Of a stretch of 64,000 nt of DNA, positions 30,030 to 58,133 are shown piece after piece. The position numbers and the translations under genes are program-made. This DNA is from Parasphingorhabdus flavimaris (GTDB lineage Bacteria; Pseudomonadota; Alphaproteobacteria; Sphingomonadales; Sphingomonadaceae). The stretch covers positions 434,001-498,000 of the forward strand of contig NZ_JABWMH010000002.1 of assembly GCF_013371215.1 (NCBI RefSeq), given 5' to 3'. A model generated the notes under the pieces. That model was not told the DNA's origin. It searched no databases and was given only the letters and a program-made list of their open reading frames with translations. Position 1 is the stretch's first letter. Every line of letters begins with the position of its first letter.

Positions 30030-30073
30030 TCCTGTCGAGCCCGATATATTTTTCGCGAAAGTTGGATTGAGCC

Positions 30074-34956: not shown

Positions 34957-35856
34957 CTACCTGAGCGTGGCCAGGCTTTTGATCTGCTCCCGCAGCCAGG
35001 TGAGACCTGGATCCTTTTCGCGCGTCGCGTGAAACTGAAGCATCTCGCGCATGGGTGGAACCTCGAAGGGAAGGTTCGCAATGCGCAGTGGCAGTCGCCC
35101 TGCCAGTGATTGAGCCAGCCGTTCATGCATGAGGCAAACACGGTTTGTTTCCAGTACCAGAAATGGTGCCTGAAGGAACGATGGTGCGCGTACTTCTATC
35201 CGGCGCTCGATATTTGTCTCGCGCATCCAGGCATCGATATAAGTGTCACCGCCTGAAATCGAGACACCTACATGGCCAAGTTCTGACAGGCGCTTGATCG
35301 TCATTTGTTCGTTCATGTGCGGGTTTCCGGACCATCCCACCACGACATGCCGTTCTTCGAAGATCAGTTCGGAGGGATGGTCTGGATGGGTGAAGGTTTC
35401 TGGGCCCAGGAACATGTCGAGTTCGCCGTCGGCCAACGATTTGTTGGTATTGGAATATGGCAAGGCGATGTCCAGTTTGACGAAAGGTGCTATCGTTGAA
35501 ATCGCACCCAGCAAAGGCACGAGCAAGACCGTTGTGATATAGTCCGATGCGACAATTTTGAATTCACGTTCGGAAGTCGCCGGATCAAATTTGCCCTTGC
35601 GGGCGATCAGGGCACGCAAAGAGGCAATTGTTTCGGTAATTTCCGGATGCATCGCCAGGGCATATGGTGTCGGCACCATCTTCTTGCCTTGCTGTGCGAG
35701 TATCTCGTCCTGAAAAGCTTCGCGAAGACGCTTGAGCTGTGCGCTCATCGCTGCCTGCGTCACATGCGCCCTGGCTGCCGCCTTGGTGACATTTTTTTCC
35801 TGCAGCAGAATGTCGAAAGCCACGAGTAAATTGAGATCGAAATTGTCGAGCCGCAT
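34957..35856 (-). CDS. LysR-family regulator, divergent from the aromatic operon
   Basis: A 299-residue LysR regulator of the NodD-like branch: an HTH at about 6-65 (FDLNLLVAFDILLQEKNVTKAAARAHVTQAAMSAQLKRLREAF) and a ligand-binding domain beyond residue 90 with VLLVPLLGAISTIAPFVKLDI. It lies divergent from the TonB receptor with 170 bases between, and a long palindrome sits in that spacer; this is the usual arrangement for a LysR activator of the neighbouring operon. The inducer is presumably a substrate or intermediate of that pathway. Confidence 0.92.
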   Translation of the reverse strand: MRLDNFDLNLLVAFDILLQEKNVTKAAARAHVTQAAMSAQLKRLREAFQDEILAQQGKKMVPTPYALAMHPEITETIASLRALIARKGKFDPATSEREFKIVASDYITTVLLVPLLGAISTIAPFVKLDIALPYSNTNKSLADGELDMFLGPETFTHPDHPSELIFEERHVVVGWSGNPHMNEQMTIKRLSELGHVGVSISGGDTYIDAWMRETNIERRIEVRAPSFLQAPFLVLETNRVCLMHERLAQSLAGRLPLRIANLPFEVPPMREMLQFHATREKDPGLTWLREQIKSLATLR

Positions 35857-35897
35857 CTTGTATCTATCCCTGAGTCATCCCGCGGACGTTCGGCCCG

Positions 35898-35928
35898 ATG
35901 CATCAACATATAAATATAATTGATGCAT
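35898..35928. promoter_or_regulatory. Palindromic operator with embedded TATAAT
   Basis: ATGCATCAA (35898-35906) and TTGATGCAT (35920-35928) are perfect inverse complements separated by 13 AT-rich bases. A perfect TATAAT lies at 35915-35920, reading toward the TonB receptor gene; no good -35 box is placed 17 bases before it, which fits an activator-dependent promoter. Probably the LysR site for the operon. Confidence 0.65.
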
Positions 35929-36026
35929 TACAACAAAAACAAAAAATTATATCTTTTAAACGGGCGGTTCTATCGCCTTTCTAGAAGCACCGGTAAATCC
36001 GGGCACACGTTTATGGGAGAGGACAC

Positions 36027-38642
36027 ATGCGCCGTAATTTCAATGGATCAACTATTTCCAGAACTGCACTGTCAGTAGCCTGCTTTGCCGCCTTTGCAGC
36101 GACGCCGGCTTACGCAGGAGAAGTCGCAGATGCAGCAACAGCGGCTGAGTCAGCGCAAACAGGCGGTGATTCGCAGTCTGCGGGCGAGGCAGAGCAGTCT
36201 GGTGGACTGGGCGTAATTGTCGTGACGGCGCAACGCAAAGCAGAGTCGCTGCAGGATGCTGCGATTCCGATCAATGCCGCCACGGGGGCTGACCTGACGC
36301 GGGCCGGTGTTGCCGATGCCACAACTTTGAATGCGGTTGCTCCCGCACTTTACGTCACCGCAGGCGGTGGCGCGAATGCCGGATATTTTGTTCGCGGGGT
36401 CGGCAATTTCACGAACAACGGTTACACCAGCCCCGCAGTCGCCTTCAACGTCGACGGCGTTTACATCGGACGGCCTTCATCGACCATTGCTTCGTTTCTG
36501 GATGTCGCGGGTGTCGAAGTATTGAAGGGGCCGCAAGGCACATTATACGGACGTAACGCAACCGGCGGCGCCATCAACGTGATCCCGACCAAGCCAATTC
36601 CTGGCGAAACGAGCGGCTATGTCTCCGGTTCCTACGGCAATTATAACGCTTTCGGGATCGAAGGCGCTCTTAACCTTGCTGTGGGCGACGACGGCGCGAT
36701 CCGCATCGCCGCTGCGGTCAACGAACATGATGGCTACAATACCGATGGCACATTTGACGCCAAGGATGTCGCATTTCGTGGCCAGTTCTATGCCGAACCA
36801 GCCCCCGGATTTGATATCCGCTTCACGGTCGATTATTCCACCCAGAAGGGCGCGGGTCCCGGCACAGATGTCTTTGGTGCCTATGGCCTGATTCCTCCTG
36901 GAACGCCGGGACGCGAAGATCCTCCGGTACCGGGATGGAATTTCATCTCCGCTCCGGCTGCCGTGGCCGAGCCGTTTACCGGTCTCCATACTCCCGAAGC
37001 GCTCGCCTTTCTCGCAACGGTCGCGACCGCTCCGCTTTTCTCGCCTTTTCAGGACTTCGCCTATCCATCGCGCGATGACGAATATCTTGGGGTGAGTGCA
37101 GAAATGAACTTCGAACTCGGCGATGTCGATCTCGTGGTGATCCCGGCCTATCGCCAGTCCAAGCTCGATAATATATTCAACGGACCTCCGTTCAAGGCCG
37201 CGATCAACAAGGACACTGCCGAACAGTGGAGCATCGAGGCACGATTCTCGGGTTCGACGGGGCCAGTCGACTGGATCGCGGGCGCATATTATTTCGACGA
37301 ACGTGTCGAGGGCGTGAATGCTTTCAACCAGTTTGGCACCGTCTCGAACAACGCATTTGATTCACAGTCGGACTCGCTGGCCTTCTTTGGTCGTGCGACA
37401 TTCAACCTGTCCGACGATCTGCGCCTTGTCGGCGGTATACGTCACACAACCGAAAATCGCTCGATCGATGCCAGCGCTACGGCAGCAGCAGGGGTTTGCC
37501 TCGAGGATCCGGTTGGCCGGGCTCCGTTTTGTGGCCATGTTCCAACCTTGCCAGTCGGCCTGACTCTGCAGGATGTGCTCGGCGGCCTAGACCCGGCATT
37601 GTTCCCGGTTCCCGGCAGAAATCCGCAAACCGCCTTTAATCCCAATGGAGCAGATGGTGTGGGTCAGGTATTTCCTTATGGTCCGTTCAATATCTTTGCT
37701 CCGGCACAATTCGGACCGGGCGCGCTGTTGATCATCACGCCCAACACCATCCAGCGTTCCGCCAGTGACAAGGAATTCACCTATCGGGCTGCGGTCGAAT
37801 ATGACATCACGCCGGAGAATCTGGTCTATGCCAGTTTCGAAAACGGCTTCCGCGCCGGCGGCTTTAACCTCGCACGGGGCCGGGAAACCTATGATCCGGA
37901 GTTCATCGACGCCTTCACCATTGGTTCGAAAAACCGCTTCTTCGACAACCGCTTCGAGCTGAACGCAGAGCTGTTCTACTGGAAATATAAGGGCCAGCAA
38001 TTGGCGGCTCTGGGCGTCGATGTGGACGGCAACAACGCCTTCTACACCCGCAATGTCGGCAAATCCTCGATCAAGGGTGTCGATATCGACTTCCAGTTCC
38101 TGGTTACCGAAACGACCAAATTGCGCGGGGGCATGCAATATCTCGATGCCAAATATGACGAATATTCGTTCGATCAGGTCGATCTGGCCGATCCGGGCGA
38201 TCCACCAAACTTCCTGCGCCCTGTCACCAGTTGCGATACCACACAGCAGCCGATCGATCCGGTCAGCGGCAAGGGGTCCTATATCGTTGACTGTTCCGGC
38301 AAACAGGCTCTGAACTCTCCGAAATGGTCCGCCAATCTTGGACTGGAGCAGACAATCGAGTTCAGTGCGGTCAAACTTGTCGGCACCTTGGACGGACGTT
38401 ACCGTGGCAGCCGTGAGGTCGGATTCAACTATATTCCGGAGAGCCGGGTCGGAAGCGACGTGACGTTGGACGCCTCGCTCACCCTGGCCGAACTGGATGA
38501 CCAGTGGGCGATTACTGCCTTCGCCCGGAATATTACCGACGAAGCTGTTTCGACAACTGTTCAATTGGGCTCCGGCAACGTCGTCGGTGGAACCTACCAG
38601 CCACCGCGGACCTATGGTGTGCGGGCGAAGTTCAATTTTTAA
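36027..38642 (+). CDS. TonB-dependent outer membrane receptor
   Basis: An 871-residue receptor with a signal peptide (residues 1-30, ending AYA), a plug domain starting IVVTAQRKAESLQDAAIPINA, the plug sequence VEVLKGPQGTLYGRNATGGAINV near residue 165, and a 22-strand barrel ending in VRAKFNF with the terminal Phe. GGAGAGG precedes the ATG. In sphingomonads such receptors import aromatic compounds as well as siderophores (DdvT in SYK-6 is a known example). Being first in a catabolic operon and having no siderophore genes nearby suggests uptake of the operon's aromatic substrate. Confidence 0.93.
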   Translation: MRRNFNGSTISRTALSVACFAAFAATPAYAGEVADAATAAESAQTGGDSQSAGEAEQSGGLGVIVVTAQRKAESLQDAAIPINAATGADLTRAGVADATTLNAVAPALYVTAGGGANAGYFVRGVGNFTNNGYTSPAVAFNVDGVYIGRPSSTIASFLDVAGVEVLKGPQGTLYGRNATGGAINVIPTKPIPGETSGYVSGSYGNYNAFGIEGALNLAVGDDGAIRIAAAVNEHDGYNTDGTFDAKDVAFRGQFYAEPAPGFDIRFTVDYSTQKGAGPGTDVFGAYGLIPPGTPGREDPPVPGWNFISAPAAVAEPFTGLHTPEALAFLATVATAPLFSPFQDFAYPSRDDEYLGVSAEMNFELGDVDLVVIPAYRQSKLDNIFNGPPFKAAINKDTAEQWSIEARFSGSTGPVDWIAGAYYFDERVEGVNAFNQFGTVSNNAFDSQSDSLAFFGRATFNLSDDLRLVGGIRHTTENRSIDASATAAAGVCLEDPVGRAPFCGHVPTLPVGLTLQDVLGGLDPALFPVPGRNPQTAFNPNGADGVGQVFPYGPFNIFAPAQFGPGALLIITPNTIQRSASDKEFTYRAAVEYDITPENLVYASFENGFRAGGFNLARGRETYDPEFIDAFTIGSKNRFFDNRFELNAELFYWKYKGQQLAALGVDVDGNNAFYTRNVGKSSIKGVDIDFQFLVTETTKLRGGMQYLDAKYDEYSFDQVDLADPGDPPNFLRPVTSCDTTQQPIDPVSGKGSYIVDCSGKQALNSPKWSANLGLEQTIEFSAVKLVGTLDGRYRGSREVGFNYIPESRVGSDVTLDASLTLAELDDQWAITAFARNITDEAVSTTVQLGSGNVVGGTYQPPRTYGVRAKFNF

Positions 38643-38655
38643 GGGAGTTCAGGCA

Positions 38656-39669
38656 GTGCGCTCAACATTTTCACTTTCGGTGGGCGCACTGCTGCTTTCC
38701 GCTTCTCCGGTCCTTGCGCAAGCGGGACCGGCCACTCCCGCTCAGCAGGATGAAAACAGCCAGACTGTTGCCGACAGCAAGGGCAAATGGATTACCCTGG
38801 GCACAAGAGGCGGGCCGGTAACCAGCCCGACCCGTTCGCAGCCTGCCAATCTGCTGGTGTTCAACGGCAAAAAATATCTTGTCGATGTCGGGGATGGTGC
38901 TTCGGGCCAGTCGGGCAAGGCCGGCGTCCAGACCGCAGCGCTGGACGGCATATTCATCAGCCATCTGCATTTTGACCATACGGCCGGGCTTGCCGGCATA
39001 TTGGGGCTTCGCTTCCAGACCAACGCGCCGAAGACTTTTACCATCTACGGCCCTCCTGGCACACAGGAAATGGTTGACGGGCTGCTCGCCTCCATGACGC
39101 CAGGCGCGACCGCCAATTACGGCGTGCCGGGTGCCCCGGTCCAGGACCACCGGACTGGTATCGAGGTGGTCGAGTTTCGCGACGGTGCCAAGACAAATGT
39201 GAACGGAATGAATGTGTCCGTGCGCAGCAACAGCCACTATAGTTTTGTACCGGGCAGTGATCTGGAAAAACGCTTCCAGTCCCTCTCGTTCCGCTTCGAT
39301 TTGCCCGGGCGTTCGATCGTCTATACCGGCGACACCGGACCAAGCAGCGCGGTTGAGGAACTGGCCAGGGATGCCGATCTGCTCGTCGCAGAAATGATGG
39401 ACGTGCCACTTATCGTTGCTACGGTACGGCGCAACAATCCCAGAATGCCCGAGCAAGCGGCAAAGGGCATGGAAGCCCATCTCACCAAACATCATCTGCT
39501 GCCCAAGGATGTCGGGCAATTGGCGGCTCGCGCTGGCGTGAAGGCAGTGATCGTCACCCATTTTGCCGGCGCGGAGACGGACACGCCGGACTATTTCGAA
39601 TATCTCCGGACAATCGCGGACCATTACGATGGACCTGTGATTATCGCCAATGACATGGATGTTTTCTAG
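38656..39669 (+). CDS. Exported metallo-beta-lactamase-fold hydrolase
   Basis: A 337-residue protein starting with GTG 38656 (AAGGGAG upstream). Residues 1-22 form a signal peptide (VLAQA cleavage). The metal site is ISHLHFDHTAG (His103, His105, Asp107, His108), followed by NSHYSF, the Asp in VYTGDTG and a C-terminal VTHFAG. The pattern resembles the RNase Z/arylsulfatase-type part of the superfamily. It is placed 13 bases after the receptor gene, so the periplasmic enzyme may unmask the substrate (for example hydrolyse an ester or lactone) before uptake. This role is inferred. Confidence 0.85.
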   Translation: MRSTFSLSVGALLLSASPVLAQAGPATPAQQDENSQTVADSKGKWITLGTRGGPVTSPTRSQPANLLVFNGKKYLVDVGDGASGQSGKAGVQTAALDGIFISHLHFDHTAGLAGILGLRFQTNAPKTFTIYGPPGTQEMVDGLLASMTPGATANYGVPGAPVQDHRTGIEVVEFRDGAKTNVNGMNVSVRSNSHYSFVPGSDLEKRFQSLSFRFDLPGRSIVYTGDTGPSSAVEELARDADLLVAEMMDVPLIVATVRRNNPRMPEQAAKGMEAHLTKHHLLPKDVGQLAARAGVKAVIVTHFAGAETDTPDYFEYLRTIADHYDGPVIIANDMDVF

Positions 39670-39671
39670 CC

Positions 39672-40787
39672 ATGAACGATCGCAATATTCTTGTCATCGG
39701 CGGCGGCATAGGCGGGTTGACCGCAGCGATTGCCCTGCGTCAGAAAGGCCACCGGGTCACGGTCATCGAAAAAGACCCGGACTGGTCCGTCTATGGTGTC
39801 GGTATCATCCAGCAGTCCAATGTCATCCGGGCAATGTCGGAGCTGGGCCTGCTCGACGATTATCTGAGCGCCGGTGTGCCGTTCGACACGATCGCCATCC
39901 ATATGCCCGACGGCACCAAGGTGGCCGAAATTCCGGCACCGCGCCTGGCGGAGAATTATCCGGCCAATGTCGGCATCGGCAGGCCCGCACTGCACAGGGT
40001 TCTGGGTGACCGGACCAAGGCATCGGGCGCAGAAATCCGCTTGGGCGTTGTTGCCGACGCGATCGACGATTCGGGCGACAAGGTTCGCGTCATTTTTTCA
40101 GATGGGAAGACAGAAGAATTCGATATCGTGGTGGGCGCAGACGGGGTCTATTCCGACACGCGGCAGAAAATCATGCCGGATGCCGAGAAACCGGAATTTA
40201 CCGGCCAATCGGTCTGGCGCTACAATTTCCAGCGTCCCGACGATCTCAATGCGCTGCATGTCTATAACGGTCCGACCGGCATCGGCCTGGTGCCGATCAG
40301 CAAAGAGCTGATGTACATGTATGTGACAACGCCGGAACCGGACAAGCCGGTCTATGAGACAGCGGGCATGGCCCAGACCATGCGCGAAAAATTGTCCGCC
40401 GCGCCGCCGCAAATTCAGAAGCTGGCGGCTGAAATTACCGATGACGAAGGCGTTGTCTACCGCCCGCTGGAGCAGATGATGCTCTATGGTGCATGGCACA
40501 GTGGCCGGGTCGTATTGCTCGGTGATGCGGTCCATGCGACCACGCCGCATCTGGGGCAGGGCGCTGGCATGGCAATCGAGGACAGCCTTGTTCTGGCCGA
40601 TGAACTTTCCAATCACGATACGCCGGAAGCCGCCTTCCAGGCCTATCGCGCCCGTCGTTTCGACCGTTGCAAATATATTGTCGAAAAGTCTCTGGCGATT
40701 TGTCACGGCCAGCTCGGCAAGGGACCGCCGGTCGATAACGCCGAGGCCACCCACGAGATGTTCGCGATTGTCTCCCAACCCATTTGA
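39672..40787 (+). CDS. FAD-dependent aromatic monooxygenase
   Basis: A 371-residue group A flavin monooxygenase. GGGIGGLTAAIALRQ (residues 10-24) is the FAD-binding site, VGADGVYSDTR the DG motif, and VVLLGDAVHATTPHLGQGAGMAIEDSLVLA the GD motif. Closest in character to salicylate, 3-hydroxybenzoate and 6-hydroxynicotinate hydroxylases, which add an OH to a ring already bearing one. It is only two bases after the metallo-hydrolase gene. Likely it prepares a catechol for the extradiol dioxygenase encoded next. Confidence 0.9.
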   Translation: MNDRNILVIGGGIGGLTAAIALRQKGHRVTVIEKDPDWSVYGVGIIQQSNVIRAMSELGLLDDYLSAGVPFDTIAIHMPDGTKVAEIPAPRLAENYPANVGIGRPALHRVLGDRTKASGAEIRLGVVADAIDDSGDKVRVIFSDGKTEEFDIVVGADGVYSDTRQKIMPDAEKPEFTGQSVWRYNFQRPDDLNALHVYNGPTGIGLVPISKELMYMYVTTPEPDKPVYETAGMAQTMREKLSAAPPQIQKLAAEITDDEGVVYRPLEQMMLYGAWHSGRVVLLGDAVHATTPHLGQGAGMAIEDSLVLADELSNHDTPEAAFQAYRARRFDRCKYIVEKSLAICHGQLGKGPPVDNAEATHEMFAIVSQPI

Positions 40788-40811
40788 TAGAACAAGATTA
40801 AGGACTAAGTA

Positions 40812-41714
40812 ATGAGCCGAGTAACCGAAATTCGCTACGTCGGATACGGCGTCAAGGACTTTGACACCGAACGGAAATTCTATGCCGATGACTGGGGCCT
40901 GACGGAAGTGCAGGCCACCGATGACATGGCCTGGTTCAAGACCCATGGCCATGACGAGCATCACGTGGTCCGCCTGCACAAGCGCGACAGCGATTGTGTC
41001 GAGGTAATTGCTCTGGCGGCCGGCAGCCGCGCGGACGTCGACGCCCTGCGTGCGAAGGTCGGAGATGCCGGCTGCAAGATCATTCACGAGCCGCGCGTCC
41101 TCGATGCTCCGGGCGGGGGCTATGGCTTCCGCTTCTTCTCTCCCGATGGAATGCCGTTCGAAATTTCCTCGGATGTCGAACGCGGAGAACAGCGGGTGAT
41201 GAAACGCTGGGAAGGCATGCCACTCAAAATCAGTCACATCGTTCTGCATTCCCCCGATCACAAAGCAGCGGTCAAATTTTTTACCGAAGTGCTCGGGTTC
41301 AAGGTTTCCGACTGGCTGGGCGATTTCATGTGCTTCCTGCGCTGCAACGAAGCGCATCACCGGATTGCACTATTGCCCGGGCCACCCTGCCTCAACCATG
41401 TCGCTTATGATATGCTGACGCTGGATGACATGATGCGTGGCGCCAGCCGTTTGCGCAAGCGCGGCACCGACATTCGCTGGGGCCCTGGCCGCCACACCGC
41501 GGGGAACAATACGTTCAGCTATTTCTGCACACCCGCCGGTTTCGCGGTGGAATATACATCGGAGCTCGAAGAGGTCGATTTCGAAAATCATCAGGAAATG
41601 GTACACGAACCTGGTCCGCAGGTGATGGACCAGTGGGAAACCGGTATAGGCGGGCCGCAGACCATGCCGAAACCGGCAGCCGACCCTTGTCTCTTCCAGC
41701 CCTCGGAGGTCTGA
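40812..41714 (+). CDS. Type I extradiol ring-cleavage dioxygenase (VOC family)
   Basis: A 300-residue two-module vicinal oxygen chelate protein. The second module carries the iron ligands His142 (KISHIVLHS), His196 (LNHVAYD) and Glu247 (FAVEYTSE), plus GPGRHTAGNNTFSYF with catalytic His228, as in BphC-type 2,3-dihydroxybiphenyl dioxygenases. It cleaves a catechol next to a hydroxyl (meta cleavage). The long C-terminal tail (about 40 residues after Glu247) is unlike BphC. The C-C hydrolase gene follows by four bases. The true substrate is unknown. Confidence 0.9.
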   Translation: MSRVTEIRYVGYGVKDFDTERKFYADDWGLTEVQATDDMAWFKTHGHDEHHVVRLHKRDSDCVEVIALAAGSRADVDALRAKVGDAGCKIIHEPRVLDAPGGGYGFRFFSPDGMPFEISSDVERGEQRVMKRWEGMPLKISHIVLHSPDHKAAVKFFTEVLGFKVSDWLGDFMCFLRCNEAHHRIALLPGPPCLNHVAYDMLTLDDMMRGASRLRKRGTDIRWGPGRHTAGNNTFSYFCTPAGFAVEYTSELEEVDFENHQEMVHEPGPQVMDQWETGIGGPQTMPKPAADPCLFQPSEV

Positions 41715-41718
41715 ATAT

Positions 41719-42876
41719 ATGGCTCTTTTTGAATATTTTCCCAATTATATCTGGAACCTGTCGGTCGCAATAGCAATGGAAAGCGGCGGCCAGATTGGTG
41801 AAATCATCGACATGTGCCAGCCGATCAAGGAAGCGGCAGCGGCGGGCGATGATGCCGGCGTTCCGCAGTTCATGAAACAATGGGCCGCGATGGGGGACAA
41901 GCTGCAGGAACTCGCTGCGGAGGACGAAGCCAGGGGGCGGAACTTCTCTGCTTCGAACAAGCTGGAGCGCGCATCGCTTTATCTGTTCACCGCGGAACGC
42001 ATGATGGGACATGGCCATCCGGGTCGCACCGAAACTTTCGCCAAAGCGCGCAATGCTTTTGACCGGTCGACCAAGCTCGGATCGATCAACCGTGAGCGGG
42101 TAGAAATACAGCTCGACACCGGCACCATGCCGGCGATCTGGACCAAGGCTCCCGGCTCCGGGAAAAAGCCGGCTGTCGTCTTCTGCAACGGTCTCGATAG
42201 CAACAAGGAACTGCTCTACTGGACGCGCCTTCCCGAAGAACTGGCGCGACGCGGAATCTCGACGCTTTGCGTAGACCAGCCCGGTTCGGGCGAAGCATTG
42301 CGGTTGCAGAATCTTCCGGTCGATCCGCATAGCGAAAGCTGGGCCTCGAAGGCTGTCGACTGGCTCGAAACGCAGGACAATGTCGATGCGTCGAAACTGG
42401 GCATGACCGGTATTTCGCTCGGCGGCCATTTTGCGCCGCGCGCTGTAGCCTACGAACCACGGTTCGCCAGCGGAGCGGTCTGGGGTGCCAATCATAATTG
42501 GCGCGAAGTGCAGGACAAGCGCATGAAGCGTGAAGGGGAAAACCCGGTTCCGCATTATTGGGCGCATGTGATGTGGGCATTTGGTGCGGAAGATATGGAA
42601 GATTTCCTGGCGAAATCGACCGATATGAACCTCAACGGCCATATGGACCGGATCACGGTTCCGTTTCTCGTCACCCACGGGTCCAATGATCGTCAGATCA
42701 GTGTGGATTATGCTTCGGATCTCTATGACCAGCTGGTCAACTCGCCGCGCCGCGAAAAGGTTATCTTCACGCAGCGCGAAGGCGGTGTCGAGCATGTTGG
42801 CGCGGACAATATGGCCTATGGTCGCGATCTGCTGTCCGACTGGTTTGCCGAAACATTGGGCGGGAATGCCGGGTGA
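41719..42876 (+). CDS. Alpha/beta hydrolase with N-terminal helical lid (C-C hydrolase-like)
   Basis: A 385-residue protein: a helical N-terminal domain (1-120), then the alpha/beta core with PAVVFCNGLDSNKELL, the nucleophile elbow TGISLGGHFA (Ser233), acid within THGSNDRQI, and catalytic His in GGVEHVGADN. This layout is that of the DUF1100/FrsA-like group, which includes 2,6-dihydroxypseudooxynicotine hydrolase, an enzyme cutting a carbon-carbon bond next to an aromatic ring. It is probably the step after ring cleavage, but it could act on a side chain. Typical meta-cleavage hydrolases (BphD) lack this N-terminal domain. Confidence 0.87.
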   Translation: MALFEYFPNYIWNLSVAIAMESGGQIGEIIDMCQPIKEAAAAGDDAGVPQFMKQWAAMGDKLQELAAEDEARGRNFSASNKLERASLYLFTAERMMGHGHPGRTETFAKARNAFDRSTKLGSINRERVEIQLDTGTMPAIWTKAPGSGKKPAVVFCNGLDSNKELLYWTRLPEELARRGISTLCVDQPGSGEALRLQNLPVDPHSESWASKAVDWLETQDNVDASKLGMTGISLGGHFAPRAVAYEPRFASGAVWGANHNWREVQDKRMKREGENPVPHYWAHVMWAFGAEDMEDFLAKSTDMNLNGHMDRITVPFLVTHGSNDRQISVDYASDLYDQLVNSPRREKVIFTQREGGVEHVGADNMAYGRDLLSDWFAETLGGNAG

Positions 42877-43199
42877 AATATATCGCAGAAGCCCAGGTGC
42901 CGACCGACAACGCAAAAAAATATGCAGCACAGCTTGGCAAGCATTGGGCGCATAACCTCGCCGTAGAGGAGAGGGGAGAGGCTGTTCTTATCACTTTTCC
43001 AAAAGATGCGCGCGGGGCCGCCTGGCCCGCCGATGCAGTTGTGACCTTGGCACCGGAGGGCGGTACCTTGCGCTGCTGCATCGAGGCGTCATCGGAAGGG
43101 CAGCGCGATGGTTTGAAGGGCGCTGTTGAACGGCACGTTGATCGTTTTGCTTTTCGCGAAGCGCCGCTGAACTATAAATGGCGGGATAGCGAAGACTAA
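42873..43199 (+). CDS. DUF2218 domain protein
   Basis: A 108-residue protein starting with GTG that overlaps the TGA of the hydrolase gene. The sequence VPTDNAKKYAAQLGKHWAHNL...LITFP and the ending LKGAVERHVDRFAFREAPLNYKW fit the DUF2218 family. The family has no firm function; members sit beside siderophore or oxidoreductase genes. Within this operon it may be an accessory factor. Confidence 0.8.
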   Translation: MKYIAEAQVPTDNAKKYAAQLGKHWAHNLAVEERGEAVLITFPKDARGAAWPADAVVTLAPEGGTLRCCIEASSEGQRDGLKGAVERHVDRFAFREAPLNYKWRDSED

Positions 43200-43247
43200 G
43201 AAGAGCTGACCCAAAAAATGGGCTGCGAACACAGGAGGGATGCGAGC

Positions 43248-44444
43248 ATGGCGGAAACAGGTGTTGGAAACGCAGCGCGCCAAGCTGGTACACGCCAGGG
43301 CATCATCATATTGGCAGCGTCGGTCATGCCGATCATGGCGATCATATCATTGGTTCCGGTCTTGCCCTTGCTCATGCGCGAATTCGCTTCCGTCGAAGGG
43401 AGCGAATTTCTGGTCCCGATGGCGCTTACGATTCCCGCTCTTTGTGTCGCGCTCTTTTCGCCAGTGGCGGGCTGGCTGTCCGACCGGTTGGGGCGAAAGA
43501 CATTGCTGGTAGCAGCGCTGCTGCTTTACGCCGCCTTCGGTATCATCCCGTGGTTTCTAGACGATCTTTTCCAGATTATCGGTGCGCGGGTTGCACTCGG
43601 CATCGTCGAAGCCATCATCATGACGGTCGCGACCGCTCTTATCGGCGATTATTTTGTCGGTGAGCGGCGCGAGAAGTGGATTGCGCTGCAGGTCGCCGTG
43701 GGCAGCATCGCCGCCATTGCGCTGATCGCCATCGGCGGCGGGCTTGGCGAACTGTTCGGCTCGCGCGGACCGTTTCTGCTGTACCTTGTCGCCATACCGA
43801 TCGCGCTCGCCGCAGCCACGATCCTGTTCGAACCAGAGGTGAAGGCGAATGATGCCGGACTCGCAAAGCCGGGCTTTCCATACCGCGCAATTCTCCCGCT
43901 GGTTTTCACGACATTGGGTGTGGGAATCGTTTTCTATACCGTCATCGTGCAACTGGGTCCGATTCTGGAACTGTCCGGTGCCGTATCACCCGGTATCATC
44001 GGACTGATCGGTGCCGGGACCAATTTGGGCGTCGGGCTGGGGACATTCGTGTTTGACAGGCTGAAAGACAAAGCGGGTCCTCTGCTGCTCGCGCTGGGTC
44101 TGGCCGTTGCCGCCATCGGTTATATCGGCATAGGACTTTCTTCAGTCCTGCCGATGATTGGGGCATTCGCGATTTTGGCCTGCATCGGCAGCGGGATCCT
44201 GCTGCCCAATATGTTGACCTGGACCATGCGCCGTCTGCCCGCCGAAATGCGGGGCCGGGGTACCGGAATGTGGACAGGCGCATTTTTCCTGGGGCAGTTT
44301 CTCGCTCCGATCGTCGCGGCTTCGGCTATGCAGGCAACAGGCGGGCTCGCAAATGCACTGACCGTCTATGCGGGGCTCATCGCAATTGGCGCCATCGCTG
44401 CACTGCTGTTTGCGCGCAAACCAACCTTTGAGGCAACAACATGA
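43248..44444 (+). CDS. MFS transporter
   Basis: A 398-residue transporter with 12 helices. Motif A GWLSDRLGRK lies between helices 2 and 3, and FGSRGPFLLY and GRGTGMWTGAFFLGQF are further MFS features. The start at 43248 has AGGAGG upstream; 43218 is also open. The family includes aromatic acid importers and drug exporters. In this operon it most likely moves the aromatic substrate or a product across the inner membrane, complementing the TonB receptor. Confidence 0.88.
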   Translation: MAETGVGNAARQAGTRQGIIILAASVMPIMAIISLVPVLPLLMREFASVEGSEFLVPMALTIPALCVALFSPVAGWLSDRLGRKTLLVAALLLYAAFGIIPWFLDDLFQIIGARVALGIVEAIIMTVATALIGDYFVGERREKWIALQVAVGSIAAIALIAIGGGLGELFGSRGPFLLYLVAIPIALAAATILFEPEVKANDAGLAKPGFPYRAILPLVFTTLGVGIVFYTVIVQLGPILELSGAVSPGIIGLIGAGTNLGVGLGTFVFDRLKDKAGPLLLALGLAVAAIGYIGIGLSSVLPMIGAFAILACIGSGILLPNMLTWTMRRLPAEMRGRGTGMWTGAFFLGQFLAPIVAASAMQATGGLANALTVYAGLIAIGAIAALLFARKPTFEATT

Positions 44445-45634
44445 TGCCAAAGCAAATAACCAAAATGGACATGGACCCGTTCGCAGAAGAATTTCTCGCC
44501 GATCCCTACGCGCATCATGCCGCGCTGCGCGATGCCGGTCCGGTTGTGTGGCTGGAAACATTGGGCGTCTATGCAATGGCCCGCTTTGATGAAGTTCAAA
44601 CCGCGCTGCGCGATCACGAGACCTTTTGCTCCTCGCGCGGTGTTGGTCTGGCCGATTTTTCGAAAGAAGAACCGTTCCGTCCGCCGTCGTTGCTGCTCGA
44701 GGCGGACCCCCCGCTACATGATCGAACACGGGCCATCGTCAACAAGATTGTTTCGATGAAAGCGCTGAAGGAACTGCGTCCGGTCTGGCAGGAAAAGGCG
44801 GATGCATTGGTTGCCTCTTTGGCCGGGAAGAGACGCTTTGACGCGGTGCCTGATTTATCAGAAGCCTTTCCGCTGATGATCTTTCCCGACACGATCGGAC
44901 TGCCTGACGAGGGGCGGGAGCATTTGATCGATTATGCAACGATCGTGTTCAACGCCTTTGGCCCTCGCAATCGTGTTTTCGAAGAAGGCAATGCTGGCAA
45001 GGAAGCGGCGATCGAATGGGTGGGTGAAGTCTGCAAGCGAGAGAATCTGAAGCCCGGTGGCTGGGGTGCGGCCTTGTATGAGGCAGCGGATCGCGGCGAT
45101 TGTACTGCAGACGAAGCCGAGCGACTGGTACGATCGTTTCTGTCCGCCGGCGTCGACACGACGGTGAACGGTATCGCTCACATGACCCTGGCCTTGGCTG
45201 AAAACCCCAACGAATTTCAAAAGCTTCGGGAGAATCCAAAACTTGCACTGCGAGCATTTGAAGAAAGCCTGCGGTGGGATTCCACCGTGCAGACCTTCTT
45301 TCGAACGGCTTCAAGAGATACCGAAGTTGCCGGAATCAAAATTCCCGAAGGATCAAAAGTTCTGCTGTTCCTGGCGTCCGCCAATCGCGACCCGCGCAAA
45401 TGGGATGATCCCGATCAATTCCGGATAGACCGCAATGTCAGTGGCCATGTTGGTTTTGGATTTGGTATCCACCAGTGTCTTGGCCAAATGGTCGCGCGTC
45501 TCGAAGGCGAACTGATCGGCGCTGCTCTGGCCCGGCGGGTTTCCTCCATTCGCCTGACCGGAAAACCCGAACGGCGGCTTAACAACACGCTCCATGCATT
45601 GGCTTCGCTGCCAGTGGAAATGACAGTGGCATGA
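44441..45634 (+). CDS. Cytochrome P450
   Basis: A 397-residue soluble P450. The heme-binding loop FGFGIHQCLGQ puts the thiolate Cys at 346; the I-helix is FLSAGVDTTVNG with the AGxDTT oxygen-activation site; ExxR is FEESLRW. It resembles CYP199-type enzymes, which O-demethylate or hydroxylate para-substituted benzoates (inference). No ferredoxin or reductase gene adjoins it; the flavoprotein at 22504 is a candidate partner. It overlaps the MFS gene by ATGA and the GST gene by ATGA. Confidence 0.93.
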   Translation: MMPKQITKMDMDPFAEEFLADPYAHHAALRDAGPVVWLETLGVYAMARFDEVQTALRDHETFCSSRGVGLADFSKEEPFRPPSLLLEADPPLHDRTRAIVNKIVSMKALKELRPVWQEKADALVASLAGKRRFDAVPDLSEAFPLMIFPDTIGLPDEGREHLIDYATIVFNAFGPRNRVFEEGNAGKEAAIEWVGEVCKRENLKPGGWGAALYEAADRGDCTADEAERLVRSFLSAGVDTTVNGIAHMTLALAENPNEFQKLRENPKLALRAFEESLRWDSTVQTFFRTASRDTEVAGIKIPEGSKVLLFLASANRDPRKWDDPDQFRIDRNVSGHVGFGFGIHQCLGQMVARLEGELIGAALARRVSSIRLTGKPERRLNNTLHALASLPVEMTVA

Positions 45635-46317
45635 CCGAAAACAAACCAATTCTCTATTTTGCTCCTTCGACCTGTGCTCGCGTCACGCTCACTGCGCTGG
45701 AAGAAATCGGGCAACCCTATGAAACGCGGCTTGTCGCTTTCATGGCGGGTGAGCACCGCAAGCCGGAATATCTGGCAATCAATCCCGCGGGCAAAGTTCC
45801 GGCGATTCAAACAGAGGCAGGCGTTCTCACACAAAATGGTGCGATCCTGTTCTATCTGGCGCAGACATATCCCGAAGCAGGCCTGTTGCCGCTGTCCGGT
45901 GATCCCCAGGCCGATGCGTCCGTCCTGTCCTCATTGTTCCGCATGTCGGCTGACTTGCACCCGTTGGTGACGCGTTTCGTGATCCCGGGCATGATCCTCT
46001 CCGACCCGGCATCTTCCGCGCATGTGCGCGCAAAAGCCGAAGAGGTTTTGAAACTGCAACTGGAACCTATTGCGACCCAACTGGGCAAACAGCCTTGGTA
46101 TCTCGGCGATCGCTGGTCGATCCTCGACGCCTATCTGGCCTGGATCTGGTTCCGGATCACCGGAGCCGGTTTCGATCCCGCGACCTTCCCGGCAATTGCC
46201 GATCATTATGACCGGGCGAGCGAGCGTCCCTCTGCCAGGGCCGCGCTCCAGCACGAAGCGCGCGCGCAGCAAGAACTCACCGAACGCGGGCTGGCATTCA
46301 CGCCGCCAAAGCTCTGA
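45631..46317 (+). CDS. Glutathione S-transferase
   Basis: A 228-residue GST: an N-terminal thioredoxin fold (PILYFAPSTCARVTLTALEEIG, with VPAIQTEAGVLTQNGAILFYLAQTYPE, the glutathione-binding part) and an all-helical C-terminal domain (about 85-215, GDRWSILDAYLAWIW). In catabolic operons GSTs act as cis-trans isomerases of ring-cleavage products (maleylpyruvate isomerase) or as ether-cleaving enzymes (LigF type). Either role would fit; the FAH-family hydrolase downstream favours isomerase. It is fused by ATGA overlap to the P450 gene. Confidence 0.9.
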   Translation: MTENKPILYFAPSTCARVTLTALEEIGQPYETRLVAFMAGEHRKPEYLAINPAGKVPAIQTEAGVLTQNGAILFYLAQTYPEAGLLPLSGDPQADASVLSSLFRMSADLHPLVTRFVIPGMILSDPASSAHVRAKAEEVLKLQLEPIATQLGKQPWYLGDRWSILDAYLAWIWFRITGAGFDPATFPAIADHYDRASERPSARAALQHEARAQQELTERGLAFTPPKL

Positions 46318-46350
46318 ATGAAACCCAATTGAAACGAAGGAAATGAAACT

Positions 46351-46920
46351 ATGAGCGAGAGACCCGTCCGCCGCGTTGTTACCGGCCATAATGCGCAAGG
46401 TCAGGCGATCATACAGGAAGACGGCAGCGTGCCGCGCACCCAGAAAATTGGTGGCGAAACCGGACCGCTGTTCCACGAAGTCTGGAACACCCGCGCGACG
46501 CCCGCGCCGATTGACGCCGCTTCGGGAGAGCCTCCGGAAGAGGGGATCATCCTGGCCCCGCCGGCAAACGGCACGAGAATACGGGTTCTCGATATCCCGC
46601 CCGACGACGACAGCTTCTCGGAAATGACTCCCGAACAGGCGAAAGCCCATTTTGCCGAAATCGGGGCGGCGGACGCTTCCTCCTTTGAAGGAGAAGGCTC
46701 GCGCCATGCCCATATGCACCGCACCGAAACGATCGACTACGGAATCGTGCTCGAAGGCGAGCTGGTCCTCATCATGGACGAAGGCGAAACCACCGTGCGC
46801 GCTGGCGATATTGTCGTGCAGCGCGGCACCAACCATGGCTGGGCCAACCGCAGCAGTGAAAATTGCCGGATCGCCTTCATCCTGATCGACGGCGCATTTG
46901 ATGAAAGCCTGAAACAATGA
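46351..46920 (+). CDS. Cupin-domain protein
   Basis: A 189-residue single-cupin protein. Metal ligands are in SRHAHMHRTETIDYGIVLEGELVLIMD (about residues 121-147) and the second motif VQRGTNHGWANRS (about 151-165). It is too short to be gentisate dioxygenase (two cupins, about 350 residues). Members near aromatic pathways act as small dioxygenases or isomerases of ring-cleavage products. The role here is unknown. AAGGAA is upstream; ATGA overlaps the next gene. Confidence 0.85.
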   Translation: MSERPVRRVVTGHNAQGQAIIQEDGSVPRTQKIGGETGPLFHEVWNTRATPAPIDAASGEPPEEGIILAPPANGTRIRVLDIPPDDDSFSEMTPEQAKAHFAEIGAADASSFEGEGSRHAHMHRTETIDYGIVLEGELVLIMDEGETTVRAGDIVVQRGTNHGWANRSSENCRIAFILIDGAFDESLKQ

Positions 46921-47885
46921 GACTGGCAACCCTCAAAGACGGCACACCCGACGGCGCTCTGGCTGTCGTTTCGGACGATGGCACGCGCTGTCTGAAAATC
47001 GGGGACCGGCTGCCAAATTTGCTGCAGCTGATGGAAGGCTGGGATGCCGGCCAGGCGATCCTTTCAGAGGCACGGCAGAAGCTGGCTGCGGGGCAGGGGG
47101 AGCCTGCCACAGCCGAGGCATGCGCCGCCCCCCTACCGCGCAGCTGGCAGTGGCTCGACGGCTCGGCTTTTTCCACCCACGGCGATTTGATGCAGGTCGC
47201 GTTCGGGCTTGACCCGATCGAAAGTGACCGGCCGCTGATGTATCAGGGCGTCTCCGATCGCTTCTTCGGCCCGACCGAAGATGTGCCCTTGCCGAGCATC
47301 GAACATGGCATCGATTTCGAGGGTGAATTTGGCGTGATCGTCGATCATGTGCCGATGGGCACGTCCGCCGAGGATGCGATGGCCCATATAAAGCTGATCG
47401 TCCAGATCAATGACTGGTCGCTGCGCGCGATCGCCCCGATCGAGATGAAGACCGGTTTTGGCTGGGTCCAGGCAAAACCGGCCTGTTCAATGGCGCCCTT
47501 TGCAGTGACACCCGATGAACTGGGCGACGGCTGGAAAGATGGTCGGGTCTGTCTCGATCTCGAGATTGACTGGAATGGTAAGCGTTTCGGCGCGGCCAAT
47601 GGCGCGGCGATGGATTTCGGCTTTCACGATCTCGTCGCCCATGCGGCTCTGACCCGCGATCTGGTGGCGGGGACTATTATCGGCTCGGGCACGGTATCGA
47701 ATCCCGATTATGCGGAAGTCGGTTCCAGCTGTATCTCAGAAGTCCGCGCGATCGAGATGATCCGCGACAAGGCGCCGGCGACAACAGGTTTCATGGGTTT
47801 TGGCGACCATATCCGGATGGAAGGTCGCGGTGTCGATGGTTCGTCACCATTTGGCGTGATTGATCAGCAGGTTGTAAAGGGTTGA
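46917..47885 (+). CDS. Fumarylacetoacetate hydrolase-family protein
   Basis: A 322-residue FAH-fold enzyme. Metal ligands are Glu135 and Glu137 in GIDFEGEFGVIVD, and Asp in VQINDWSLR; the ending IEMIRDKAPATTGFMGFGDHIRMEG is typical. Such enzymes hydrolyse or decarboxylate 2-oxo, 4-oxo or enol acids from ring cleavage. It is the last gene of the operon; the PobA gene that follows is convergent, 29 bases away. With the GST it suggests a final isomerise-then-hydrolyse step. Confidence 0.88.
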   Translation: MRLATLKDGTPDGALAVVSDDGTRCLKIGDRLPNLLQLMEGWDAGQAILSEARQKLAAGQGEPATAEACAAPLPRSWQWLDGSAFSTHGDLMQVAFGLDPIESDRPLMYQGVSDRFFGPTEDVPLPSIEHGIDFEGEFGVIVDHVPMGTSAEDAMAHIKLIVQINDWSLRAIAPIEMKTGFGWVQAKPACSMAPFAVTPDELGDGWKDGRVCLDLEIDWNGKRFGAANGAAMDFGFHDLVAHAALTRDLVAGTIIGSGTVSNPDYAEVGSSCISEVRAIEMIRDKAPATTGFMGFGDHIRMEGRGVDGSSPFGVIDQQVVKG

Positions 47886-47914: not shown

Positions 47915-49084
47915 TCAAAGCGGCAATCCGACATAATTTTCGGCGATTGTCTTTTGCGCCGCTTCGCTTCCGGAAATATAATCCAGTTCAGCCATTTGCA
48001 TCCGTCGTTCGAAGGGCCCGTCTTCGGGAAAGCGGTGCATCAGTTTTGTCAGCGACCAGCTGAAGCGTTCGGACTTCCAGACCCTTGCCAATGCCTTTTG
48101 TGAATAGGCCGCGATGCCGTCATTGTCGATGTGGTTGAAAAAGCCGGCAAGGGCTTCCGACAGATAATGCACGTCGGATGCAGCCAGATTCAGTCCTTTG
48201 GCCCCCGTGGGCGGAACGATATGGGCTGCATCTCCCGCGAGAAAAAGGCTGCCGTGGCGCATGGGCTCAAACACAAAACTGCGCAGCGGCGCGATGCTCT
48301 TTTCAATTGCTGCGCCGCGGGTCATATTGGCTGCGGCCTGAGGACCCAGCCGGACGGCAAGCTCATCCCAGAGCCGATCGTCATTCCAGTCTTCGACGTT
48401 CTCTGTGACCGGAACATCAATATAATAGCGGCTGCGCGTCTTGCTCCGCATCGAAGCCAGCGCAAAGCCGCGCTCGTGATTGGCGTAGATCAGTTCGTCA
48501 TGGCAGGGCGGCACATCGGCCAAAATACCAAGCCAGCCAAATGGATATTCGCGCTCGTAGGATTGTGCGACACTTTTCGGAATGGCTTGCCGCGACGGAC
48601 CATGATAGCCGTCGCATCCAGCGATGAAGCGCGCATCGATTCGGTGCTCGCAGCCGTCCTTGCGATAAGTAACATACGGCGCATTACCGTCAATATCATG
48701 CAAGTCGACATCATTTGCTTCATAGATGATGTCCAGTCCCCGTTCGGGCGCTGCATCCATCAGGTCGCGCGTGACCTCGGTCTGGCCGTAAACGGTGACA
48801 TGTTTGCCTGTCAGGCTGTAAGTATCGATCCGGATCAGTCTCTCGCCATCGGCAAGGCAGAAGCCCTCTTCGAGCAGCCCTTCGCTATTCAACCGGGCAT
48901 CAATGTCGAGCCGGTGGAGCAGATCGGTCGTCGTCTGCTCAAGGACGCCAGCACGAATCCGGCCCAGCACATACTCCGCCGACGCGCGCTCGACGATGAT
49001 GCAGTCAATGTCTTCGGCGCGCAACAAATGGCCGAGCAATAATCCGGCGGGGCCAGCGCCAATAATGACGACCTGTGTTTTCAC
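47915..49084 (-). CDS. pobA: 4-hydroxybenzoate 3-monooxygenase
   Basis: A 389-residue flavoprotein that turns 4-hydroxybenzoate into protocatechuate with NADPH and oxygen. The FAD site IIGAGPAGLLLGHLL is at the N-terminus; GRIRAGVLEQTTTDLL, YGQTEVTRDLM, FIAGCDGYHGPSR and LAGDAAHIVPPTGAKGLNLAASDV are all hallmarks of PobA. Its length matches. The start is GTG 49084, overlapping the ligC stop by GTGA. It is the last gene of the minus-strand lig unit and supplies the substrate for LigAB. Confidence 0.95.
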   Translation of the reverse strand: MKTQVVIIGAGPAGLLLGHLLRAEDIDCIIVERASAEYVLGRIRAGVLEQTTTDLLHRLDIDARLNSEGLLEEGFCLADGERLIRIDTYSLTGKHVTVYGQTEVTRDLMDAAPERGLDIIYEANDVDLHDIDGNAPYVTYRKDGCEHRIDARFIAGCDGYHGPSRQAIPKSVAQSYEREYPFGWLGILADVPPCHDELIYANHERGFALASMRSKTRSRYYIDVPVTENVEDWNDDRLWDELAVRLGPQAAANMTRGAAIEKSIAPLRSFVFEPMRHGSLFLAGDAAHIVPPTGAKGLNLAASDVHYLSEALAGFFNHIDNDGIAAYSQKALARVWKSERFSWSLTKLMHRFPEDGPFERRMQMAELDYISGSEAAQKTIAENYVGLPL

Positions 49085-50019
49085 CCGAGCTGCTGTTCGA
49101 GATCATGCAGCACCTTGTAGCAAGGCAACACCTGGGCAACACTGCTATTGGGTTCCCGCCCTTCTCGGATTGCGGCAATGAATTCGCGGTCCTGCAATTC
49201 GATTCCGTTCATCGAAACATCGACCTTGCTCACGTCGATCACTTCTTCCTTGCCGTTCACCAGATCATCATAGCGCGCGATATAAGTCTCGTTGTCGCCG
49301 ATGTAGCGGAAGAATGTGCCCAGCGGGCCGTCGTTGTTGAACGAGAGGGAAAGCGTGCAGATCGCGCCGCTCTGCGCTTTCAACTGTATCGACATATCCA
49401 TCGCGATGCCCAGTTCCGGGTGGATCGGCCCCTGGATCGCATTGGCCTGAATGATCGGCCCGGCCTGATAGGCAAAGAGATCCACCGTATGCGCGGCATG
49501 ATGCCAGAGCAGATGGTCGGTCCAGCTTCGTGCCTGCCCCTTGGCGTTGATATTCTTACGGCGGAAGAAATAGGTCTGCACGTCCATTTGCTGGATATTA
49601 TAGTCGCCAGCCTTGATCCGGTTATGCACATATTGGTGCGACGGATTGAACCGGCGGGTGTGCCCGACCATGCAGACAAGCCCGGTTTCCTTCTGCTTGG
49701 CCATCACAGCTTCGCAATCGGCCCAGCTGTCTGCCAGGGGAATTTCCACCTCGACATGCTTGCCGGCGTCCATCGCGGCGATCGACTGGGCCGCGTGCAT
49801 CTGCGTTGGCGTTGCCAATATGACCGCATCGACATCCTCGCGCGCGAGCATCTCGTCATAGTCGGTGGTGGCAAAACCGACACCATATTTGTCAGCCATA
49901 GCCCGGGTTGGTTCCAGCGTCCGGCCAACCAGCGCGGTCACTTCGACGCCGTCGATATTCTTCAGGCCATCAAGATGTTTTTCACCAAAGGCGCCGCCGC
50001 CTGCGAGTGCGATTCTCAT
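49081..50019 (-). CDS. ligC: 4-carboxy-2-hydroxymuconate-6-semialdehyde dehydrogenase
   Basis: A 312-residue Gfo/Idh/MocA-fold dehydrogenase. MRIALAGGGAFGEKHLDGLK is the NADP-binding start; HVEVEIPLADSWADC and the WTDHLLWHHAAHTVDLFAY stretch near residue 165 match LigC of SYK-6. LigC oxidises the product of LigAB (as its hemiacetal) to 2-pyrone-4,6-dicarboxylate. AGGAG precedes the ATG. It lies 18 bases after ligB and overlaps pobA. Confidence 0.93.
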   Translation of the reverse strand: MRIALAGGGAFGEKHLDGLKNIDGVEVTALVGRTLEPTRAMADKYGVGFATTDYDEMLAREDVDAVILATPTQMHAAQSIAAMDAGKHVEVEIPLADSWADCEAVMAKQKETGLVCMVGHTRRFNPSHQYVHNRIKAGDYNIQQMDVQTYFFRRKNINAKGQARSWTDHLLWHHAAHTVDLFAYQAGPIIQANAIQGPIHPELGIAMDMSIQLKAQSGAICTLSLSFNNDGPLGTFFRYIGDNETYIARYDDLVNGKEEVIDVSKVDVSMNGIELQDREFIAAIREGREPNSSVAQVLPCYKVLHDLEQQLG

Positions 50020-50037
50020 GGGATATTCTCCTAATAT

Positions 50038-51285
<1,248 letters not shown>

Positions 51286-51289
<4 letters not shown>

Positions 51290-52311
51290 TGGCCGCTCTC
51301 CGACTTTATGATTTTGCTGATCATCTGACGCGCGCGCACGCCGCCCTGATCGATATTATAGGACTGCATTGATAGATGAGGATTGGCCGCCAGCGATTTT
51401 TGCTGGGCCTCCAATATGACAATATCCTCATCGAAAACGCCATTTTGCTGCTGCCGGAAACGTGCCCCGAAACCGGGGTCGTCAACGCGGAAATCGCGCG
51501 CCATGCCCCAGAAATAATGACAATTTTCTTCGTCTTGCGGGGTCATGAAATCGACGACAAAGCCGCGAACGCCCTGATCATGTTTTTCCAGTGTCGCGCC
51601 TGCCTCGATCGGGGCCACTCCGACGTCGATCATCACCGCTGCCGGCGCGATAAATTCGCAGATTTGCCAGCGGTCCACCTGACCCTCTTTGCCCAGAGCG
51701 CCCTTCCAGAATGGAGGCGGATCAATGTCCGGTATCCAGCGTTCGACAAACACGCGATCTTCCGTTTTGCGAGTATTCAGCGGCGTTTCCATCAATTCCT
51801 GCTGCCCGATTGAACCCCCGTGGACATAAGTTTCATGGGTAAGGTCCATCAGATTGTCGATGAGCAACCGGTAGTCGCACTGGATGGGATTATAACCGCC
51901 ATCGAAGCTCCAGCCATCTGCTGAGCAGGGCCATAGATCGGGGATATCGGCTGGATCGCCTTTCTCCTCGCCCATCCATATCCACACGAACCGGTGTTGT
52001 TCGTGTATCTGGAACGTTTGCGTGCAAATCCGTTTGTTCACCGGATCGGATTTCAATGGCATCTCTTCGGCAATTCCGTCAGGCCCGATTTTCAAGCCAT
52101 GATAGGTGCAGCGAATGGAATCGCCTTCCTTGATACCCATGGACAAAGGCAGCATGCGGTGCGGGCATGCGTCGCGCATGGCCACCACTTCGCTATCGAG
52201 TTTGCGCCAGAGCACGACCGGCACGCCCAATATCGTCCGCGCCAGCGGTTGCGGGCCGACTTCATAATCCCATCCGGCGACATACCAGGCGTTTTTTATC
52301 CAGGTTGTCAC
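51286..52311 (-). CDS. vanA: Rieske aromatic oxygenase, vanillate O-demethylase type
   Basis: A 341-residue Rieske oxygenase alpha subunit. The [2Fe-2S] ligands are Cys49, His51, Cys68 and His71 (CPHRMLPL...CTYHG). The non-heme iron site is in DNLMDLTHETYVHGG near residues 153-167. The sequence NAWYVAGWDYEVG and the SYNIDQGGVRARQMI end fit VanA of vanillate demethylases, which yields protocatechuate, the LigAB substrate. GTG start overlaps ligJ. No VanB reductase is in the window. Substrate choice is inferred from family and position; a related aryl O-demethylase is possible. Confidence 0.8.
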
Positions 52312-54148: not shown

Positions 54149-54220
54149 GGCTGGCAAGCTATCCTGCGCATTACATTCACGCCAATTGGAAGCTTGAATT
54201 TGTTATAAGTTTTTGAGAAT

Positions 54221-56144: not shown

Positions 56145-58133
<1,989 letters not shown>

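Follow-up and report, generated by a model that had tools for sequence, protein, structure and literature searches.

In a 64,000-nucleotide stretch of the Parasphingorhabdus flavimaris genome (the window; NZ_JABWMH010000002.1, positions 434,001 to 498,000), a run of eleven plus-strand genes at 36027–47885, with a divergent LysR gene at 34957–35856, forms what is probably a sphingomonad variant of the polyphenol A-ring meta-cleavage operon typified by fde, the naringenin cluster of Herbaspirillum. It probably serves to hydroxylate the A ring of a flavonoid-like polyphenol and to open that ring by meta-cleavage. We infer the substrate, as we do every single reaction discussed below; the clue to a flavonoid-type compound comes from kinship to fde and to the ifc cluster of Variovorax, from deglycosidase genes in relatives and from the PobA and Lig genes next door. 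Judged by sequence, the pathway type is one already known, and the gene set itself looks most like an fde-type set in which some parts have been swapped and others added.

Our account of fde is drawn from extracts of PMC8552027, PMC9422121, PMC11303751 and PMC11069340 rather than from the original fde papers. In these extracts fde comprises ten open reading frames (PMC9422121), FdeE is an FAD monooxygenase (FMO) with FdeD as its Rieske partner and FdeA is akin to a ‘phenol degradation protein’ (PMC8552027), and dioxygenation is performed by FdeC (PMC11069340). In the ifc cluster, IfcA hydroxylates isoflavones at C8, the following step is the work of the dioxygenase IfcB, the cupins IfcD1 and IfcD2 act on a pyranone, and a gene for a hydrolase like that of 2,6-dihydroxypseudooxynicotine (DHPON) is also present (PMC11069340). 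The ifc genes resemble the fde genes, with a printed IfcA–FdeE identity of 36.3%, and IfcA homologues have been reported in Sphingopyxis (PMC11069340).

Operons of the fde type were reached outward from Massilia and Azospirillum plasmid clusters. The Azospirillum VOC protein has E 1e-60 matches in 28 of 299 Burkholderiaceae genomes, and 18 stretches were taken around such matches. Thirteen of them show the order hydrolase–VOC–Rieske–FMO, seven of the 13 with both a cyclase and a cupin. Of the others, L228 belongs with the Massilia kind and four (L225, L226, L227 and L229) are ifc-like, carrying FMO, VOC and Rieske genes and a single cupin gene. In the Burkholderiaceae locus L219, a divergent LysR gene is followed by PF13557, hydrolase, VOC, Rieske, FMO, MFS, PF04199 cyclase, cupin, FAH and epimerase genes, that is R-A-B-C-D-E-F-G-H-I-J, an arrangement that fits the printed description of fde. 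A named copy on a Burkholderia anthina plasmid from sorghum rhizosphere has one extra EthD gene and is 88–98% identical to L219.

The fde-type reading follows from the kinship of six window genes to this operon. Identities to the L219 proteins are 36.7% for the LysR regulator (R), 38.4% for the FMO (E), 54.2% for the hydrolase (B), 46.5% for the cupin (H) and 54.9% for the FAH hydrolase (I), the dioxygenase (C) being only distantly related. The L219 A, D, G and J proteins have no match in the window, the MFS transporters at the F place and in the window have no BLAST match to each other, and nothing in the L219 operon corresponds to the TonB receptor, MBL, DUF2218, P450 or GST genes. In all five Burkholderiaceae genomes searched, which were chosen for having the operon, the window FMO finds its best match inside it. 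In the reverse direction, the window FMO is the sole match of the L219 FMO at E 1e-5 in the window genome, and the window FAH gene is the best match there of the L219 FAH protein. In a tree of 62 FMO rows, 51 operon FMOs split from 10 Burkholderiaceae paralogues and the window PobA with support of 95/94, with some risk at the join from long outgroup branches. The sphingomonad rows form one group (100/99) apart from the fde-type and ifc-like rows; the ifc-like rows also form one group (99/95), and those of fde type do not form a single group. Furthermore, the loci L097, L117 and L148 carry an epimerase 38–40% identical to the B. anthina J protein, and L097 and L148 a cyclase 75–77% identical to its G protein, which makes kinship of the whole cluster a simpler reading than kinship of single genes.

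The initial annotation was right to describe an operon for aromatic catabolism that includes a DHPON-type hydrolase. All twelve genes lie where it placed them, its gene labels agree with Pfam, and the four-base overlaps that it noted occur at four junctions (hydrolase/DUF2218, MFS/P450, P450/GST and cupin/FAH). The remaining intergenic gaps are 2 to 33 bases if the MBL start is counted at 38656. The listed start of that open reading frame, 38497, falls within the TonB gene; the GTG at 38656 is more plausible, since AAGGGAG lies upstream and a signal-peptide-like stretch follows. The run is bounded on the FAH side by a convergent gene whose stop is 29 bases from the FAH end. Pattern scans of the run gave no excess of promoter-like sites (7 found, 5.5 expected) or of terminator-like sites (11 found, 13.6 expected). 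A 9-base inverted repeat with a 13-base spacer in the LysR–TonB gap occurs a single time in the window and never in 100 shuffles; we give it little weight because a perfect 9-base repeat is absent upstream of all 31 other LysR genes examined, several of which share a genome.

The window FMO carries GxGxxG and GDAxHxxxPxxxxG motifs. The H, H and E positions of the dioxygenase, which we take to be iron ligands, align with FdeC-type enzymes. Its ‘long C-terminal tail’, singled out in the initial annotation, is not peculiar to it, for the solved structure 3b59 aligns with residues 1–299 of 300. The four extradiol dioxygenases of Novosphingobium PP1Y, looked at by description only, are named as catechol, biphenyl and naphthalene/phenanthrene types in the extract available (PMC9892492); a literature search on structure 8QVC gave nothing related. 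Assignment of the C–C hydrolase to the DUF1100/DHPON type holds good (PF06500, 27.6 bits against a cut-off of 22; PDB 2jbw, E 3.6e-16), and S233, D324 and H359, invariant in 11 sequences, would from their motif positions be its Ser-Asp-His triad. A structure model of the DUF2218 protein (pLDDT 87.6) has a single fold match at E ≤0.001, PA4090, a protein without stated function.

Considering these parts together, a flavonoid-like compound may be imported by the TonB receptor and sensed by the LysR regulator. The FMO would hydroxylate the A ring beside an existing phenol (at C8 in fde and ifc), and the extradiol dioxygenase would open the hydroxylated ring. The DHPON-type hydrolase and the cupin would then break the opened chain and a pyranone-like remainder; by analogy with ifc, C–C cleavage could leave a hydroxy-pyranone on which the cupin then acts. 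In ifc the course runs through a +O2 product to 2-hydroxy-5-aryl-4H-pyran-4-one. The GST may isomerise a double bond, the FAH-family hydrolase would, in our own proposal, split a diketo acid, giving central metabolites, and a B-ring acid would feed into the PobA–LigAB genes next door.

The hydrolase has matches at E ≤1e-40 in 31 of 296 Sphingomonadales genomes, its own included, and at 80–90% identity in 12 plasmid records of Novosphingobium, Sphingobium, Croceicoccus and Sphingomonas. Its range takes in plant-associated and marine sphingomonads and, at identities of about 50–60%, other Proteobacteria and Deinococcus. A scan of named genomes with the hydrolase kept the best 80 of 581 relatives (the best-80 loci); the 69 of at least 17 kb are called long loci, and the 11 shorter ones were excluded from counts on these. 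The five-enzyme core (monooxygenase, dioxygenase, hydrolase, cupin or cyclase, and FAH) is present somewhere in the stretch in 55/69 long loci, and the dioxygenase gene stands immediately upstream of that for the hydrolase in 64/69. The full window gene set occurs in one (L078, Qipengyuania citrea CGMCC 1.8703), and also in L046 and L047, which come from the 296-genome set outside the best 80. The core is wide and the set of additions narrow. In L046, from the same genus, most operon genes are 86–99% identical to those of the window (monooxygenase, cupin, P450, GST and FAH 91–99%), but the TonB receptor is at 41%, DUF2218 at 56% and MBL at 64%, which suggests that these front-end parts have been exchanged.

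A phylum-wide search yielded 12 stretches: L171–L176 carry core pieces, and L177–L182, with a VOC gene at 36–39%, do not. On plasmid pNL2 of Novosphingobium aromaticivorans (L037, 15710–36861) lies a paralogous set (hydrolase 43%, FMO 39%, cupin 40%, FAH 62%) with several VOC genes, adjoining an MhpA-like hydroxylase. In other Proteobacteria (L036, L172, L174, L175 and L244), DUF1302, DUF1329, YCF48-like and MMPL genes stand by the core, a set associated with the uptake of hydrophobic compounds.

When only genes that are at least 60% identical and no farther than 7 kb from the hydrolase are counted, 42 long loci have a cyclase only, 23 a cupin only, four neither and none both (Fisher p 1.5e-14, kinship ignored). 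In three of the four with neither (L105, L107 and L115) a cyclase lies farther out. Running counter to exclusivity, L116 and L123 hold both within their flanks, and seven loci (L097, L126, L147, L148, L149, L152 and L156) have a cupin at 36–38% together with a cyclase at 77–81%. Since both occur in these loci and in seven of the 13 fde-type stretches, the exclusion is limited to the window-type cupin.

Relatives also provide a clue to the substrate. A pair of TIM-barrel and DUF6379 genes, present in 18 of the best-80 loci, matches solved proteins including DgpB, DfgB and AgCarC2, which belong to C-glycoside deglycosidases. At E 1e-60 the larger subunit occurs in 10/296 Sphingomonadales genomes: in 10 of the 31 that have the hydrolase and in 0 of the 265 that do not (Fisher p 3.6e-11, kinship ignored); shared handles imply that both counts were made on the same 296 genomes. 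By coordinates, deglycosidase and hydrolase genes lie no more than 10 kb apart in six of the ten. Genes for a GMC oxidoreductase, a sugar isomerase and GH3 stand next to some deglycosidase loci, and among the long loci a TonB gene is absent in 18/19 of those with sugar genes versus 20/50 of the others.

Beyond the FAH gene, 47915–58133 apparently encodes a large part of the 4-hydroxybenzoate/protocatechuate 4,5-cleavage route. PobA, LigA, LigB and 4-oxalomesaconate tautomerase exceed their curated cut-offs; LigC-like and LigI-like are names that we assume from Pfam family and sub-cut-off matches. The operon had been called self-contained, which is doubtful, as a B-ring aromatic acid would need these genes. 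In 11 of the best-80 loci, several of which are closely related to one another, a PobA or Lig gene stands no more than 10 kb from the core. On the other flank, an RND efflux set (HlyD-type fusion protein, AcrB-type pump and outer membrane factor; 28434–34710) directly precedes the LysR gene; such a pump is seldom near the core in relatives (1 of 126 stretches).

Several observations weigh against the assignment to an fde-type operon. The window dioxygenase matches the L219 C protein by BLAST at 32% over 122 of 300 residues, in the C-terminal half only. The Rieske protein FdeD has no E 1e-5 match in the window, the rest of its genome not having been searched, and no match in the best-80 loci, of which 11 do not reach 17 kb. 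The fde-type and ifc-type loci were named by gene order and families, with no authenticated Herbaspirillum or Variovorax V35 sequence compared. Enzymes that are 38% identical can differ in substrate. A C-glycoside deglycosidase has no E 1e-60 match in the window genome, so that this clue comes from relatives only. As for ifc, the products of the Variovorax cupins were predicted only, and loss of the DHPON-type hydrolase gene left daidzein degradation in Variovorax unaffected (PMC11069340), which makes the step proposed above for this hydrolase tentative. The four ifc-like stretches have one cupin each and no match to the window-type hydrolase within 20 kb, and their naming is weak on both counts.

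The same enzyme logic could serve another phenolic of resorcinol or phloroglucinol type: a xanthone, anthraquinone, chromone, stilbene or coumarin. The divergent dioxygenase would suit such a substrate, as would the five genes without an L219 counterpart (TonB, MBL, DUF2218, P450 and GST), and in the extract of PMC8563793 some C-glycoside deglycosidases, assayed with a set of compounds that included carminic acid and mangiferin, act on its non-flavonoid members. However, four enzymes (monooxygenase, hydrolase, cupin and FAH) speak for an fde-type operon, the neighbouring PobA–Lig genes suit a B ring of 4-hydroxyphenyl or 3,4-dihydroxyphenyl type, and we consider a non-flavonoid substrate of this kind unlikely.

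We regard as very improbable a gentisate-like lower pathway, in which the FMO would form gentisate, the cupin cleave its ring, the GST act as maleylpyruvate isomerase and the FAH protein as fumarylpyruvate hydrolase. The extradiol dioxygenase and the C–C hydrolase would have no explanation in such a scheme. The FAH family fits, and 3-hydroxybenzoate 6-monooxygenase is among the lesser model matches of the FMO, but the cupin (189 aa) is FdeH-like and has no NCBIfam gentisate 1,2-dioxygenase match at E up to 1, for which we rejected the scheme. The GST is nearest to maiA, yet scores 73.9 against a cut-off of 171 and occurs in only 9/69 long loci. Sphingomonads are also known for the breakdown of man-made and polycyclic aromatics, and the hydrolase is, as noted, carried at 80–90% in plasmid records, two points in favour of a catabolic operon for a biphenyl-, dioxin- or estrogen-type compound. 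Pfam and NCBIfam scans of the run found neither a ring-hydroxylating dioxygenase nor a BphD-type model match, on which ground the biphenyl/polycyclic reading was rejected, and the spread of the hydrolase through plant-associated and marine sphingomonads, other Proteobacteria and Deinococcus also speaks against it; an operon of this sort seems to us highly doubtful. Flavonoids, one of the candidate substrates listed in the initial annotation, are the ones favoured here.

Table 1. Features of the window operon and its neighbourhood (window coordinates; identities to L219 are given in the text).
Feature	Position	Strand	Basis
LysR regulator, FdeR-like	34957..35856	-	PF00126/PF03466; R position of L219
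Perfect inverted repeat ATGCATCAA-N13-TTGATGCAT, LysR–TonB gap	35898..35928	.	possible regulator site, weak
TonB-dependent receptor	36027..38642	+	PF00593, PF07715
Exported MBL-fold metallo-hydrolase	38656..39669	+	PF12706, PF00753; start codons, ribosome site
FMO, FdeE-like, proposed A-ring hydroxylase	39672..40787	+	PF01494, NF005313 above cut-off; reciprocal best matches; tree
Type I (VOC) extradiol dioxygenase at FdeC place, 3b59 family	40812..41714	+	PDB 3b59 E 8.2e-153
DHPON/FrsA-type alpha/beta hydrolase, FdeB-like	41719..42876	+	PF06500, 2jbw; L219 hydrolase
DUF2218 protein	42873..43199	+	PF09981
MFS transporter	43218..44444	+	PF07690
Cytochrome P450	44441..45634	+	PF00067
GST, nearest model maleylacetoacetate isomerase, far below cut-off	45631..46317	+	
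Small cupin, FdeH-like	46351..46920	+	PF07883; H position of L219
FAH-family hydrolase, FdeI-like	46917..47885	+	PF01557, PF18288; I position of L219
Neighbours outside operon: PobA, LigC-like, LigB, LigA, Rieske demethylase-like, amidohydrolase, reductase-like	47915..58133	.	
Same block: LysR (-), 4-oxalomesaconate tautomerase, LigI-like hydrolase (+)	47915..58133		

Among the plant phenolics of soil and rhizosphere, flavonoids are abundant, and only a small number of genes that degrade them oxidatively have been described. The A-ring cases in the cited literature are fde and ifc, and a widespread sphingomonad lineage would extend this chemistry to major soil, plant and marine bacteria. We tentatively put forward, as a possibility, that sphingomonads hold a separate, modular lineage of flavonoid A-ring operons. 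Its dioxygenase would be of another branch and its FMO would work without a Rieske partner; the cupin and the PF04199 cyclase would be interchangeable for one ring-opening step; and the front end would be either TonB and MBL, as in the window, or C-glycoside oxidation and deglycosylation. If so, one linked gene set would take C-glycosyl flavonoids to central metabolism. The dioxygenase branch, the lack of a Rieske partner in the cluster and the linked C-glycoside deglycosylation genes are what would make the sphingomonad lineage distinct, and the operon offers a defined gene set for probing the substrate, the C–C cleavage step and the roles of cupin and cyclase.

How far the gene set is new depends on the level of comparison. 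The initial annotation knew of no described pathway with this exact order of genes. That holds for the order only: the gene types monooxygenase, extradiol dioxygenase, DHPON-type hydrolase and cupin are known from fde and ifc, and the FAH hydrolase corresponds to the ninth gene of fde-type operons. A search of the open-access literature found no description of this sphingomonad gene set, and flavonoid, cupin and glyoxalase appear nowhere in the main text of a 2025 paper on LigR of N. aromaticivorans. Among solved proteins, 3b59, presumably from N. aromaticivorans, is of one family with the window dioxygenase over 299 residues, its entry naming only a glyoxalase/dioxygenase family. The DHPON hydrolase 2jbw is a C–C hydrolase and a sequence relative of the window hydrolase, but works in nicotine breakdown and aligns over residues 51–258 only. 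C-glycoside deglycosidases (CarBC, DgpBC and DfgAB) have homologues beside the core in other sphingomonads, with no E 1e-60 match in the window genome. The isoflavone cluster ifc of Variovorax sp. V35 shares FMO, VOC dioxygenase, DHPON-type hydrolase and cupins with the window (PMC11069340), with two cupins to its one; the ifc-like loci found here have a Rieske gene, and their FMOs form a branch of their own, 35–37% identical to the L219 FMO. The fde operon of Herbaspirillum seropedicae SmR1 has in common with the window a divergent LysR gene, FMO, extradiol dioxygenase, DHPON-type hydrolase, cupin, FAH and MFS, a likeness judged on the fde-type operons L219 and L242 rather than on the SmR1 sequence. 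Its core runs hydrolase–dioxygenase–Rieske–FMO, against FMO–dioxygenase–hydrolase in the window, where the dioxygenase comes from another branch and TonB, MBL, DUF2218, P450 and GST genes are added.

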